From Fibrobacter sp. UWB2 (lineage in GTDB: Bacteria; Fibrobacterota; Fibrobacteria; Fibrobacterales; Fibrobacteraceae), in contig NZ_MWQK01000006.1 of NCBI RefSeq assembly GCF_002210425.1, forward strand, positions 62,001 through 126,000: a stretch of 64,000 nucleotides of DNA, given 5' to 3'. Of this stretch, positions 23,049 to 28,154 are shown in pieces. The notes under the pieces were generated by a model. It worked only from the letters and a program-made list of their open reading frames with translations, searched no databases and was not told the DNA's origin. The position numbers and the translations under genes were made by a program. How positions within the stretch are numbered: position 1 is the stretch's first letter; each line of letters starts with the position of its first letter.

Positions 23049-24872
23049 CTACTTGAGTTTTTCGAGGCTTTCGCAGAGCTTTTCGACATCTGCGAGCATT
23101 TGGGACTGTTCTTCGGTCGATGCAGTGACCGGAGCAAAACGCACAAACGAGCATTTTTCAAGCCAGCTGTTGATGGCTTCAATCGTTTCTTCCTTGACGC
23201 CGCGCTTTGAAAGTTCTTGCTTCATTTGCGGGCGGGTCATGCCCTTGAATTCGACGTTCGTCAAATTGCTGAGGTAATCGATGAGGCCGTTTTCAAGTGC
23301 TGCGAAGAATGCCTTGCCGTCGCCGTTCTTGAGGGCGGTGCGGGCGTTCGCGAACTTTTCCTTGAGAAGCTTGTTGGCCTTGCCCTTGCGGACGAGTGCC
23401 GTGTTGCTGTTGCGTTTGCGGTTTCTCGTGATGGCAAAGTTTGCAATCAGGTAGAACGGAATCGCTGCTGCAAACAGAACCCAGAAGAGCACGCTCCTGT
23501 GCGGGGCGCTAGATTCGGACTTGTCTGTAATCGGGTGGATAAAGCGGATGTCGCTGCCGAGGAATTCAATTTCCTGCTTTTGAACGACAGGAGCCGAGGT
23601 GCCTGTGCCTGCGGAAATCGGAGCTTGGTAAACGGGTTCTGCGGGGGCATCGCTCTTTTCAACTTCGATAGTCCACGGGCCTGCCGAAGCTGCTTCGTAC
23701 TTCTTTTTAGCCGGGTTGAACCAGGAATATGTAATGGCGGGGATTTCGAAAGTCCCCTTTTTCTTCGGGTAGAGGAAAACCTTGATATCCTTTGAGGTAA
23801 TGACCTTGTTGCCCTTGACCTTCTTGTTGATGCTGTTTTCGGGCGGGACGGAGCGGAATTCGCTAAAGTCGGGGAGTTTCGGGTCCGTGATGGTTCCCGG
23901 AGTGCCGTCGCCCTTGATGCTGATGGCGAGTGTCAACGCTTCGCCGACCTTGAGGTTTGTGCGGTCGAAGTTGGCGCTAAAGCTGTAGTTACCGACCATT
24001 CCCGAGAAATCGGCAGGCTTGCCTTCGGTCGGGAGCGGGAGAACGGTAATGGAAAGCGGAGCGGTGGAGGTTTCCGTTTCGATGGATTCCTGCTTTACGC
24101 TACGGCTGGAGAATGACATGCCGCCCATTTGCTTCTTTTCTTCGACGATTTTGGGTTCACCGAGCTTGGTGTACTTGAACTTGAAAGACGGAATTTGGAG
24201 TGTTCCGCTCTTGGTCGGGCTGAGCCATGCGTATTTGGCGGATGCCTTCATTTCGCGACGGGCGCCTTCGACCGGCTTGAAATCCAGATTCGAGAGGTCG
24301 TTGCGGTGGACGATGAAATCGTTGCCGGTGCTCATGTCGGTAGCCTGGAGGCCGCCCTGGAAGTGCTCAAAAGTGTGGAGGCTGAGGGTGACGCTGAACT
24401 GTTCACCTTCGTAAATGGATTTTTTGCTCGGGGTAAGGCTTACGGCGAGAGCGTCGTCGTTATAGGAACGCTGCACGCTGACCGGGATTTTGCTGCTGAT
24501 GGTGTTGGCTTCGCCGTTAATCATCCATGTGAGCGTTCCGAGGTCTTGTGTACCCGTCTTTTTTGGGGCTTTAATCTTGAAGGAATAGACGCGAGCCTTG
24601 TAGGCTCTTCCGCCCCCACCGAAAAACGAGTTGAAAATATCGTCCATGTCCGGGCGCATCACCTGATCGGCACTGTCGAGCCCGAGGAGCTTAAAGTTAT
24701 TGCGTGTTTCGAGGCGGAGCGCGCCTCTGTTCTGCGGCAGTTCCTGAATCGGAACGATGAACTGCAAATTGAATGTCTGACCCGCTTCGATGCGGTCGCT
24801 ATCGACTTGAAGAGATGGCTTTGCGTTTACAAATGCTGTTAAACCGAGACATAAAAGCAAAAATCGTTTCAT
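23049..24872 (-). CDS. BatD-like protein (oxygen tolerance family)
   Basis: This 607-residue protein carries a signal peptide (MKRFLLLCLGLTAFVNA), two or three immunoglobulin-like beta domains of the BatD type (GQTFNLQFIVPIQELP; YEGEQFSVTLSL; LKVGEALTLAISIKGDGTPG), a transmembrane helix near residues 475-500 and a cytoplasmic helical tail (residues about 520-607). Phe/Gly-rich FNSFFGGGGR around residue 75 is typical of the family. ATG 24872 gives a proper signal peptide; the upstream extension is rejected. It is paired with batE, but batA, batB, batC and the MoxR ATPase are not adjacent, which is unusual compared with the operon of Bacteroides. Confidence 0.86.
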   Translation of the reverse strand: MKRFLLLCLGLTAFVNAKPSLQVDSDRIEAGQTFNLQFIVPIQELPQNRGALRLETRNNFKLLGLDSADQVMRPDMDDIFNSFFGGGGRAYKARVYSFKIKAPKKTGTQDLGTLTWMINGEANTISSKIPVSVQRSYNDDALAVSLTPSKKSIYEGEQFSVTLSLHTFEHFQGGLQATDMSTGNDFIVHRNDLSNLDFKPVEGARREMKASAKYAWLSPTKSGTLQIPSFKFKYTKLGEPKIVEEKKQMGGMSFSSRSVKQESIETETSTAPLSITVLPLPTEGKPADFSGMVGNYSFSANFDRTNLKVGEALTLAISIKGDGTPGTITDPKLPDFSEFRSVPPENSINKKVKGNKVITSKDIKVFLYPKKKGTFEIPAITYSWFNPAKKKYEAASAGPWTIEVEKSDAPAEPVYQAPISAGTGTSAPVVQKQEIEFLGSDIRFIHPITDKSESSAPHRSVLFWVLFAAAIPFYLIANFAITRNRKRNSNTALVRKGKANKLLKEKFANARTALKNGDGKAFFAALENGLIDYLSNLTNVEFKGMTRPQMKQELSKRGVKEETIEAINSWLEKCSFVRFAPVTASTEEQSQMLADVEKLCESLEKLK

Positions 24873-24956: not shown

Positions 24957-25289
24957 TTAAGCCGGTTCTATGTCTAGCTTACCTTCTGTGTAGCGTTTCA
25001 CGATCGAGTTCAAAAGCGTCTGGTAGGGAATCCCCACTCGTTCAGCTTTTGCCTTGAACGCTTCGAGAACGCCGGGGTCAAAGCTGGTTCCGACTTTTGA
25101 CTTCCTGGACTTTGCTGCAGTCCTTTCTTTGGATGCCGCAATGGCCTTAGATAGTGCACCCGGGCCACTGAAAGATAGCCCGTTCTTTACGGCCCACTTG
25201 TGGTCTTCAAGTTCTTGCGCTTCTGTGCGGTTTTCGAAGTAAGCCGCCTTTTTTATTGCATCCCGTTCTATTTTGTCAATTTTAGCCAT
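24957..25289 (-). CDS. BrnA-like / CopG-type antitoxin
   Basis: The 110-residue protein ends in a ribbon-helix-helix segment: VGTSFDPGVLEAFKAKAERVGIPYQTLLNSIVKRY, typical of antitoxins such as BrnA. The N-terminal part is Lys- and Ala-rich and likely wraps the toxin. Its start overlaps the toxin gene by 22 bases, and GAGG before ATG 25289 marks it as translated in its own right. Toxin first, antitoxin second is the order in brnTA loci. It should neutralise the toxin and repress the operon by binding the direct repeats in the promoter. Confidence 0.72.
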   Translation of the reverse strand: MAKIDKIERDAIKKAAYFENRTEAQELEDHKWAVKNGLSFSGPGALSKAIAASKERTAAKSRKSKVGTSFDPGVLEAFKAKAERVGIPYQTLLNSIVKRYTEGKLDIEPA

Positions 25290-25522
25290 TGGTTTTTCCT
25301 CAGCTTGAAAGCGGTTGTTACTGTGTTTGTTATGTAAGAGTAAACGATCTTACAATATTTCCCGGAAATTTCAGCCAGTATTTCGATGCAGTCTTCATAT
25401 TCTTTTGACTGGTAGGCCTTCACTACCGGGATTTTCTCGTCAAACAGGTCTCTTACTTCCTGTTCCGTTATCGAGCAAGAAGCCATGTGCTGTTTTGCGT
25501 GGTCGCTTATTCTTATGTTCAT
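25268..25522 (-). CDS. Putative toxin, BrnT/DUF4258-like RelE-fold protein
   Basis: This 84-residue protein has an N-terminal HA...HM motif (ISDHAKQHMASCSITEQEVRDLF) as seen in DUF4258 and some BrnT relatives, then beta strands (DCIEILAEISGKYCKIVYSYI) and a C-terminal basic TTAFKLRKNQWLK. Size, basic character and pairing with a ribbon-helix-helix gene suggest an RNase-type toxin, but similarity to BrnT itself is limited and catalytic residues are not certain. The promoter places transcription start at the A of the ATG (25522), predicting a leaderless mRNA. A DUF4258 protein without toxic function is the main alternative. Confidence 0.65.
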   Translation of the reverse strand: MNIRISDHAKQHMASCSITEQEVRDLFDEKIPVVKAYQSKEYEDCIEILAEISGKYCKIVYSYITNTVTTAFKLRKNQWLKLTK

Positions 25523-25557: not shown

Positions 25558-25673
25558 GATATTTTATTTTTGTCGGTGAAAAATGACTATTGGTTGACTT
25601 GTCCCACTTCCGCGGGCGTAACAGTCCTAAAAACGGTTTCGAAAAATTTTCGCGAAATATATACTTTTCCCCC

Positions 25674-25702
25674 TTGAAACGTTAGTAAAAAAATGTTATC
25701 AT
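25674..25702 (+). promoter_or_regulatory. Promoter of micro-gene copy 1
   Basis: TTGAAA at 25674-25679, 17 bp, TATCAT at 25697-25702; predicted start near 25709, giving a 24-base leader. An imperfect palindrome CGAAAAATTTTCG at 25640-25652 and the shared tract CGAAATATATACT lie just upstream. Confidence 0.7.
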
Positions 25703-25732
25703 TGGCGCCGTCAAAACAAGGAGTCAAAAACA

Positions 25733-25795
25733 ATGTACTGCATTCTCGCCGCCCTCTTGATTAAGAGCTTTAAGAAATACGCAAAGCGCGCTTAA
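25733..25795 (+). CDS. 20-residue micro-protein, copy 1 (novel)
   Basis: A 21-codon frame: MYCILAALLI followed by KSFKKYAKRA, then TAA. The first half is hydrophobic with one Cys, the second is strongly basic (net charge about +5), so it may sit at or across the membrane. AAGGAG at 25718-25723 is nine bases before the ATG. Compared with copy 2 there are four base differences, all at third codon positions and all silent, which is the signature of protein-level selection. Function is unknown. Possibilities are a type I toxin-like peptide, a small regulatory membrane protein or a secreted cationic peptide. It was too short for ordinary gene calling. Confidence 0.72.
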   Translation: MYCILAALLIKSFKKYAKRA

Positions 25796-25834
25796 TCCAA
25801 AAAGATTTTTCTCTCTCCAACTAACGAACGCGAT

Positions 25835-25864
25835 GCCACGGTTTTTCCGTGGCTTTGCTTTTTT
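25835..25864 (+). terminator. Terminator of micro-gene copy 1
   Basis: GCCACGG, TTTTT loop, CCGTGGC, then a T-rich tail. It ends the transcript about 40 bases past the copy 1 stop. Confidence 0.88.
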
Positions 25865-25949
25865 AGGGGCAAAATCGTTCAAGGTCGGCGCCGCATTTTG
25901 CTATGGACGAAATGTCCAAAAAAGTTGCCGAAATATATACTAAAATACC

Positions 25950-25978
25950 TTGACGTGTTAGTAAAACTTTGTTAATAT
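25950..25978 (+). promoter_or_regulatory. Promoter of micro-gene copy 2
   Basis: TTGACG at 25950-25955, 17 bp, TAATAT at 25973-25978; predicted start near 25985 and a 24-base leader, as in copy 1. The word TTAGTAAAA in the spacer is conserved in both copies. Confidence 0.75.
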
Positions 25979-26008
25979 TGGCGCCGTCAAAACAAGGAGT
26001 CAAAAACA

Positions 26009-26071
26009 ATGTACTGCATTCTCGCCGCCCTCTTGATCAAGAGCTTTAAGAAGTACGCAAAGCGTGCCTAA
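26009..26071 (+). CDS. 20-residue micro-protein, copy 2 (novel)
   Basis: Encodes exactly the same peptide as copy 1 (MYCILAALLI then KSFKKYAKRA) with four silent changes: Ile ATT to ATC, Lys AAA to AAG, Arg CGC to CGT and Ala GCT to GCC. AAGGAG at 25994-25999 is again nine bases before the ATG, and the leader is identical. A terminator follows 30 bases after the stop, so it is not a leader peptide for malQ, which starts at 26181. The function is unknown. Confidence 0.72.
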   Translation: MYCILAALLIKSFKKYAKRA

Positions 26072-26101
26072 TTCTATAAAGAACGATTAAGAATAAGAAT
26101 T

Positions 26102-26127
26102 GGTCTCGGGTTTCCGAGCCTTTTTTT
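26102..26127 (+). terminator. Terminator of micro-gene copy 2
   Basis: GG plus CTCGG pairs with CCGAG plus CC (one bulged T) around a GTTT loop, followed by seven T residues. It separates the micro-gene from malQ. Confidence 0.85.
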
Positions 26128-26180
26128 ATTTGCTAGCAATTTAAAAGTTTCTTTTACAAAATTAGAGTTATATTTGAAGC

Positions 26181-28154
26181 ATGCGATATGGTGATTTAAC
26201 TTCCTTTCAAACCGGCGTAGCCGTTCCCCTTTTCAGTCTTCACAGCAAGCACAGCATTGGCATTGGCGAATTCCTGGACTTGATTCCGTTCGCCCAGTGG
26301 GCCAAGTTCTGCGGATTCAATATCATTCAGCTTTTGCCTGTAAACGATACCGGCTCCGAGCCGAGTCCTTACAGTGCCCGCAGCGCTTTTGCCTTGAACC
26401 CGGTGTTCATTAATGTGCAGTCTGTTGAAGGAGCCTCTGTCCTCGAACATGAAATCGAAAAGGCCCGTGAACAGTTTGCTGAACTTGAACGTGTGGACTA
26501 CTACCACATTACCACATGGAAGCGCGCCATCCTCCGCAAGATTTTTGATAATCAGTACGATGTCCTGAAAGCTTCGAAGAAGCTCCTTGCCTGGATTGAC
26601 AAGAATTCCTGGGTCAAGTCCTATTGCGTCTATTGCACGCTCAAGGCCCAGAACAACGAAGCTAGCTGGAAGGACTGGAAAAAGTTCCAGAACCCCTCTG
26701 CTGCCGATGTCGACAAGCTTTGGATGAAGAACTACAGGGACGTGCTGTTCCAGGCTTGGATGCAGTACACTGCCGAAGGTCAGTTTACCGCCGCTGTGAA
26801 CGAAGTCTCCAAACTCGGGCTCCGCCTGAAGGGCGACGTGCCTATCCTCATCAACGAAGACAGTGCCGACGTCTGGTTTGACCGCAAGTACTTCTCGCTT
26901 GCAGACCGCGCGGGTGCACCTCCTGACATGTTCAGCTACGGTGGCCAGAACTGGGGCTTCCCGACTTACCGCTGGGATGTGCTTGAAGCCGATGACTTTG
27001 GCTGGTGGCGTCGCCGTTTGGCTCAGGCCAGCAAGTTCTATCATGCTTACCGCATTGACCACGTGCTTGGATTCTTCCGCATCTGGGCGATTCCTGAATC
27101 TGAATCGACAGGTATCTTGGGACGCTTCCAACCGTCCATCCCGCTCACTTGGGACGTACTCCGCAATGCGGGCTTCTGCCGCGAATCGCTGGAATACCTG
27201 CGCCGTCCAAACTTCTCTATAGACCAGCTGCGTGAATTCCTCGGTGCCGAAACGGAAAGGCTCGTGCCGAAGTGCTTCACGAACTTGCCGGGAACGTTCG
27301 ACCGCTTTATCATCAAGCCGGAACTTTTGTCCGAACGCGCCATCCTTGCTCTTGACGAACCGCAAGAAGTCAAGGATTCCATGCTCCGCGTTTACTGGAA
27401 CCGCGTGTTTATCCCGACGGGTGACGAAAATACGTTCTACCCGTACTGGTACTGGTACAACCAGCCGGTGCTCTTTACACTCCCGCAGAACGAACAAGAT
27501 AAATTGCACGATTTGATTGGCCAGAATGAACAGGCTCAGAACGCACTCTGGGAACAGAATGCCATGAAGCTTTTGTCTGTACTCGCCAACGAAACGGATA
27601 TGCTCGTTTGCGCCGAAGACCTTGGTGCAGTGCCGCCGTGCGTGCCGACTGTGCTCAAAAAGCTCGACATCATGTCGCTACGCATTGAACGCTGGGCCCG
27701 CAACTGGAACGTTCCGTATTCTCCGTATTACAGCATGGAAGATTATCCGCGCCTCTCCGTTTGCACAACGAGTTGCCATGATACTTCGACGCTCCGCGGC
27801 TTGTGGGAAGAACCTGATTTTGACAAGGGCTTCTACTGGTCTCATGCGGGCCTGCCGGGCGTTGCTCCCGAAAAGCTTACGCCGCCTGTGGTGCACGACA
27901 TCTTGTCGCATGTGTTTACTGCAAATAGTTTGTTCTGCATTCCGCCGATCCAGGACTACTTTGCGCTTTCGGCTTCGCTTTCTGAGTGCGACCCGAAGGA
28001 AGAGCGCGTCAACATTCCGGGAACGGTCGGTGGCAAGAACTGGACTTATCGCACGCCGTGCAGTGTCGAGGACTTGCTTGCCAATGCGGGCTTGATTTCG
28101 GAGATTAGCAAACTTGTCGAAGAACGTAAGTCCCGTGCCCTCTGGAAGATTTAG
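26181..28154 (+). CDS. malQ: 4-alpha-glucanotransferase (GH77)
   Basis: MalQ disproportionates maltodextrins by moving glucan segments between chains. The 657-residue protein has the GH77 signatures: SPYSARSAFALNPVFINV near residue 70, the nucleophile Asp in YRIDHVLGFFRIW (about residue 290), the acid/base Glu in CAEDLGAVPP and the third Asp in SCHDTSTLRGLW. It lacks obvious N-terminal starch-binding domains, so it is MalQ-like rather than a full DPE2. It has no signal peptide and should act in the cytoplasm on stored glycogen or imported maltodextrins. The start at ATG 26181 follows a 50-base gap after the micro-gene terminator. The GH13 gene overlaps its 3' end. Confidence 0.95.
   Translation: MRYGDLTSFQTGVAVPLFSLHSKHSIGIGEFLDLIPFAQWAKFCGFNIIQLLPVNDTGSEPSPYSARSAFALNPVFINVQSVEGASVLEHEIEKAREQFAELERVDYYHITTWKRAILRKIFDNQYDVLKASKKLLAWIDKNSWVKSYCVYCTLKAQNNEASWKDWKKFQNPSAADVDKLWMKNYRDVLFQAWMQYTAEGQFTAAVNEVSKLGLRLKGDVPILINEDSADVWFDRKYFSLADRAGAPPDMFSYGGQNWGFPTYRWDVLEADDFGWWRRRLAQASKFYHAYRIDHVLGFFRIWAIPESESTGILGRFQPSIPLTWDVLRNAGFCRESLEYLRRPNFSIDQLREFLGAETERLVPKCFTNLPGTFDRFIIKPELLSERAILALDEPQEVKDSMLRVYWNRVFIPTGDENTFYPYWYWYNQPVLFTLPQNEQDKLHDLIGQNEQAQNALWEQNAMKLLSVLANETDMLVCAEDLGAVPPCVPTVLKKLDIMSLRIERWARNWNVPYSPYYSMEDYPRLSVCTTSCHDTSTLRGLWEEPDFDKGFYWSHAGLPGVAPEKLTPPVVHDILSHVFTANSLFCIPPIQDYFALSASLSECDPKEERVNIPGTVGGKNWTYRTPCSVEDLLANAGLISEISKLVEERKSRALWKI

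Follow-up and report, generated by a model that had tools for sequence, protein, structure and literature searches.

Does a frame of only 21 codons, found twice in tandem in Fibrobacter sp. UWB2, represent a gene maintained for its protein, and what would such a gene do? Fibrobacter is a major fibre-digesting gut bacterium and the Fibrobacterota are important cellulose degraders; a gene of 20 codons is shorter than common gene finders accept by default. We examined this micro-gene in its window (the whole stretch of 64,000 nucleotides that was analysed) and in other genomes. The features of the locus, in window coordinates, were the following:

23049..24872, minus strand: batD, the divergent conserved neighbour (PF13584 and synteny)
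25674..25709, plus strand: promoter of copy 1, with -35 TTGAAA, a private spacer, -10 TATCAT and discriminator TTGGCGCC
25718..25723, plus strand: Shine-Dalgarno AAGGAG of copy 1
25733..25795, plus strand: ORF of copy 1, on the batD side, peptide MYCILAALLIKSFKKYAKRA (frame list and profile match)
25807..25818, plus strand: U-tract and CUCUCUC in the 3' UTR of copy 1, TTTTCTCTCTCC, a single occurrence in the genome
25835..25862, plus strand: terminator of copy 1, hairpin and U-run
25950..25985, plus strand: promoter of copy 2, TTGACG-17-TAATAT, discriminator TTGGCGCC
25994..25999, plus strand: Shine-Dalgarno AAGGAG of copy 2
26009..26071, plus strand: ORF of copy 2, on the malQ side, same peptide MYCILAALLIKSFKKYAKRA, without the CU motif
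26105..26127, plus strand: terminator of copy 2
26181..28154, plus strand: malQ (GH77; PF02446), the 3' neighbour in the tandem clade, a separate gene outside the unit

Both frames translate to the same peptide, as the original prediction had it, and the four differences between them are silent third-position changes (ATT/ATC, AAA/AAG, CGC/CGT and GCT/GCC). The frames are part of a direct repeat of 165 nt with 84% identity (25639-25803 and 25915-26079). The AAGGAG nine bases 5' of the ATG, the 17-bp-spaced promoter and the terminator claimed for each copy were all found, and the transcripts would measure about 157 nt (copy 1) and about 144 nt (copy 2) from the predicted start. Consensus-based promoter and structure scans thus supported both copies as complete transcription units, as judged by sequence.

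The frame is conserved throughout much of the genus. DNA and profile searches recovered 85 intact copies in 70 of the 80 Fibrobacter genomes (E <= 1.5e-8; counts taken by hand from the profile-search table), and none of these copies contained an internal stop. The nine genomes (out of 61) that were negative by DNA match were the same nine that lacked a confident protein match, so nothing pointed to copies in decay; no genome searched had remnant DNA where an intact frame was missing. In the main type (57 distinct frames), silent-site changes dominated (pS 0.465, pN 0.063), giving a dN/dS of ~0.09 as a pairwise average with no tree correction. M1, Y2, C3 and A6 were invariant in 17 seed variants, while the C-terminal half was more variable, and variants such as MYCLLAYLIVKQLKSGKALI retained the same promoter. 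The claim of protein-level selection is therefore borne out: the micro-gene is supported as protein-coding and under purifying selection, and it ranks with the shortest protein-coding genes whose genus-wide purifying selection is demonstrable by sequence alone.

Outside the genus the gene was not recovered: the profile search found it in 0 of 88 genomes from other genera of the phylum, and returned no homologue beyond the genus better than E 0.037. No MYC-like frame was present in the small divergent ORFs upstream of batD in other genera or in gene-less Fibrobacter. Three 99%-complete genomes (G035, G053 and G083) lack the gene, with batD directly adjoining the radical SAM gene, and it is therefore not essential to the genus. 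These three fall among gene-bearing species on the batD tree (a single gene, with moderate deep support), which suggests loss and not primitive absence. The original prediction named no family for the peptide, and we obtained no Pfam, PHROGs or PDB match at E up to 10 in library searches that have low power with 20 residues; weak Rfam matches (isrK, 21 bits; cut-off 50) were discarded as chance. The literature searched contained neither the peptide string nor a usable paper on small RNAs or ribosome profiling in Fibrobacter. GMSC, which catalogues predicted small ORFs, covers lengths of 30 nt and more (PMC11364881).

The position of the micro-gene is fixed. Almost all batD-side copies whose flank was long enough had batD on the opposite strand, usually at a gap of 175-470 nt; the gap of 861 nt in the window is the site of an inserted toxin-antitoxin-like pair. 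On the 3' side, most species have a radical SAM gene in convergent orientation; the tandem clade instead has malQ, preceded by copy 2. The tandem arrangement originally described holds for one subclade (15 of 80 genomes) and not elsewhere, most species having a single copy. From these comparisons we consider that the micro-gene is a fixed-position chromosomal gene and not a scattered or mobile element. A mobile origin was rejected, with no plasmid or phage match; the single IMG/VR match (L228) was a phage-host junction that carries the two chromosomal copies along with the first part of malQ.

The batD-micro-gene-malQ interval itself has the look of a hot spot for insertions. In L228 it contains a phage-like stretch that includes a small terminase, and in L094 and L118 extra ORFs separate the two copies. 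In the window, two minus-strand genes at 24957-25522, one BrnA-antitoxin-like and one DUF4258, probably make up a type II toxin-antitoxin system inserted between batD and the micro-gene, with a promoter TTGACA-17-TATATT. In L096, L106 and L133/L155, batD is apparently duplicated or fragmented beside the locus.

The neighbourhood also bears on whether the frame could be a leader (attenuator) peptide for malQ. Copy 2 of the tandem clade and its terminator do lie ~110 nt upstream of malQ, but the next gene is convergent in most genomes, so that nothing lies downstream to attenuate; as a general role this is ruled out, and as a reading of the locus we find it scarcely credible. Ahead of malQ, at window positions 26160-26183, we noted TTATATTTGAAGCATG, which resembles a Bacteroidetes -7 element (consensus TAnnTTTG) near the start codon.

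The promoter core matches that of the rRNA promoters of the same genome (CCTTG, TAnnnT and discriminator TTGGCGCC). Like the batD linkage and the CUCUCUC motif described below, this rRNA-like core was not part of the original prediction. The -10 with discriminator, TAnnnTTGGCGCC, occurs 15 times in the genome, and only the two rRNA and two micro-gene promoters among these sites are intergenic with an upstream CCTTG -35, the others lying inside frames or right at start codons. The two rRNA promoters lie at contig ends, next to the starts of 16S genes; in relatives, rRNA promoters share the layout CCTTG...TTGGC. The micro-gene promoter keeps its own conserved spacer in relatives (GTTAGTAAAA...TTGTTAATA), for which a search allowing three mismatches returned only the two micro-gene sites in the genome. 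By core and discriminator we thus class the promoter as rRNA-type and predict growth-rate regulation; G+C-rich discriminators accompany growth-rate and stringent control. With such a core promoter the transcript is probably plentiful and its level linked to growth rate, and high expression is predicted during fast growth. A different arrangement was seen near position 1500 of L183, L184, L185 and L190, where the -10-like element in TAnnnTTTGGCGCCATG abuts the start codon, which suggests leaderless transcripts in Fibrobacter.

The peptide has the hydrophobic N-terminal half that had been claimed, and its net charge is +5. Its ~9 hydrophobic residues (2-10) are short for a membrane span, and its helical amphipathic moment was unremarkable (a moment as high was reached by 14.6% of shuffles overall and by 3.4% over residues 5-20), with other variants being less amphipathic. 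A hydrophobic first half followed by a cationic second half is compatible with membrane binding. A leaderless, cationic and hydrophobic peptide of ~20 residues might also be secreted as an antimicrobial or signal in the manner of phenol-soluble modulins. We regard this as very unlikely, given the weak amphipathicity, the lack of a conserved linked transporter or immunity gene (batD is the only conserved neighbour) and an N-terminus near-invariant within the genus, unlike that of fast-evolving antimicrobials.

The original prediction leaned towards a type I toxin, in which the peptide would depolarise the inner membrane and an antisense RNA would restrain it. The tandem copies recall the ibs loci, which are repeated. 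The peptide agrees with described membrane toxins in size, in its hydrophobic stretch, in its cysteine and in the cationic residues of its C-terminus (PMC8309996). However, a search over the transcript gave no antisense promoter that outscored shuffled controls in any of the 82 copies (best score 8/12; shuffles reach 10), a trans-acting antitoxin aside. The leader is short and accessible with a moderately open Shine-Dalgarno, the ORF's own promoter is strong and rrn-like, and the gene sits at a fixed core locus with no plasmid or phage relatives. The toxin-like leaning is thus not upheld, and we judge a type I toxin improbable.

Downstream of the frame, a terminator hairpin was present in 80 of the 82 copies, and the motif CUCUCUC in 45 of the 82 against 0.22 expected from dinucleotide shuffles (the set was deduplicated on exact flanks, and one species is possibly present from two collections). 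The motif lies shortly 3' of the stop and 5' of the terminator, usually preceded by a U-tract. It was present in 11 of 17 divergent 3' UTR clusters, and when ten cluster representatives were aligned on it the flanking columns were poorly conserved. TTTTCTCTCTCY was found once in the genome. None of the 17 malQ-side copies had the motif, nor did several clades, and it is therefore not universal. Shine-Dalgarno self-sequestration by CUCUCUC was rejected (median summed pairing only 0.05).

These data bear on whether the small protein is the sole product, a membrane-associated peptide made from an RNA whose CU tract acts locally, e.g. in RNA stability or termination. The ORF is more widespread than the motif, malQ-side copies dispense with the latter, and a search of 21 genomes found no Hfq; against this, the motif is conserved between otherwise unalignable 3' UTRs and is single-locus in the genome. 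We consider this account possible but doubtful. A dual-function RNA would unite a working ORF with a conserved pairing stretch in a single transcript ending at a terminator; here the ORF is under selection and the CU motif, kept in part of the genus, is a candidate for that stretch. Candidate targets with GAGAGAG close 5' of the ATG were listed in four genomes. In particular, the start of an L16-like gene (rplP, assigned by eye from sequence), GAGAGAGAAGTAATTATG, was identical in 4 of 4 genomes, although it shares sequence with the end of the preceding coding frame, an overlap that may alone explain its conservation. A hydrophobic N-terminal segment was found in 7 of 9 own-genome GAGAGAG-start genes vs 13 of 37 window genes (p 0.026, a post hoc comparison of a small sample). 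We treat these genes as leads only. Related exported proteins in L270, L271 and L282 share GAGAGAG ribosome-binding sites across genomes, and an adjacent pair of exported-protein genes at about 219-220 kb of contig C3 in the own genome also has them; these could be candidate targets or merely share a ribosome-binding site.

Our preferred reading, held tentatively and with slightly less than even confidence, is a monocistronic mRNA, linked to growth, that encodes a small membrane-associated protein and possibly also acts as a base-pairing RNA. A short, genus-specific transcript would be made from the rRNA-type core promoter and translated into a 20-residue peptide with the N-terminus Met-Tyr-Cys. 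On the inner membrane, residues 2-10 would be buried and the Lys/Arg half would lie at the cytoplasmic surface, the first ten residues within the membrane surface and the cationic tail toward the phosphates, and the peptide may serve as a small regulator of the envelope or of membrane proteins. Where a lineage keeps CUCUCUC, the same RNA would probably also pair with purine-rich ribosome-binding sites. The expression level, membrane location, RNA targets and biological role are what we infer here. A fuller version, in which a growth-rate-coupled dual-function RNA combines the rRNA-type promoter and membrane peptide with CUCUCUC pairing to ribosomal-protein and envelope ribosome-binding sites, seems unlikely to us; if true, it would couple envelope synthesis to the output of ribosomes in a genus where Hfq was not detected.

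Among known systems, SpoVM-type peptides are hydrophobic/cationic, ~20-26 residues long, lack a signal peptide and lie on the membrane surface. The micro-gene peptide shares the length, character and missing signal peptide, but shows no sequence relation and weak amphipathicity, and Fibrobacter is non-sporulating. Tandem copies are a point of likeness to IbsC of E. coli (19 aa) and its kin. These also resemble the micro-gene in length and hydrophobic stretch, and some membrane type I toxins share a cysteine and C-terminal cationic residues with its peptide (PMC8309996). The micro-gene differs from IbsC-type toxins in its shorter hydrophobic stretch (the minimum for IbsC toxicity is 10 hydrophobic residues; PMC8309996), its fixed core locus and the lack of a detected antisense promoter; membrane type I toxins are described only from Proteobacteria and Firmicutes in a review (PMC8309996). 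Finally, the dual-function RNA VcdRP of Vibrio cholerae comprises a promoter, one tiny ORF (29 residues), a 3' pyrimidine stretch that base-pairs and a Rho-independent terminator (PMC8672173), and in both systems ORF and pyrimidine stretch are conserved, the latter in part of the genus for the micro-gene. The stretch is four C in VcdRP and CUCUCUC in the micro-gene, with no sequence relation; VcdRP is CRP-repressed and its pairing is proven (PMC8672173), whereas the micro-gene promoter is rrn-type, its pairing is predicted, and no Hfq was found in the 21 Fibrobacterota genomes searched. By this comparison the resemblance is a likeness of plan, not kinship, and if the CU motif does pair with mRNAs, the Fibrobacterota would gain their first defined regulatory RNA of the dual-function type.
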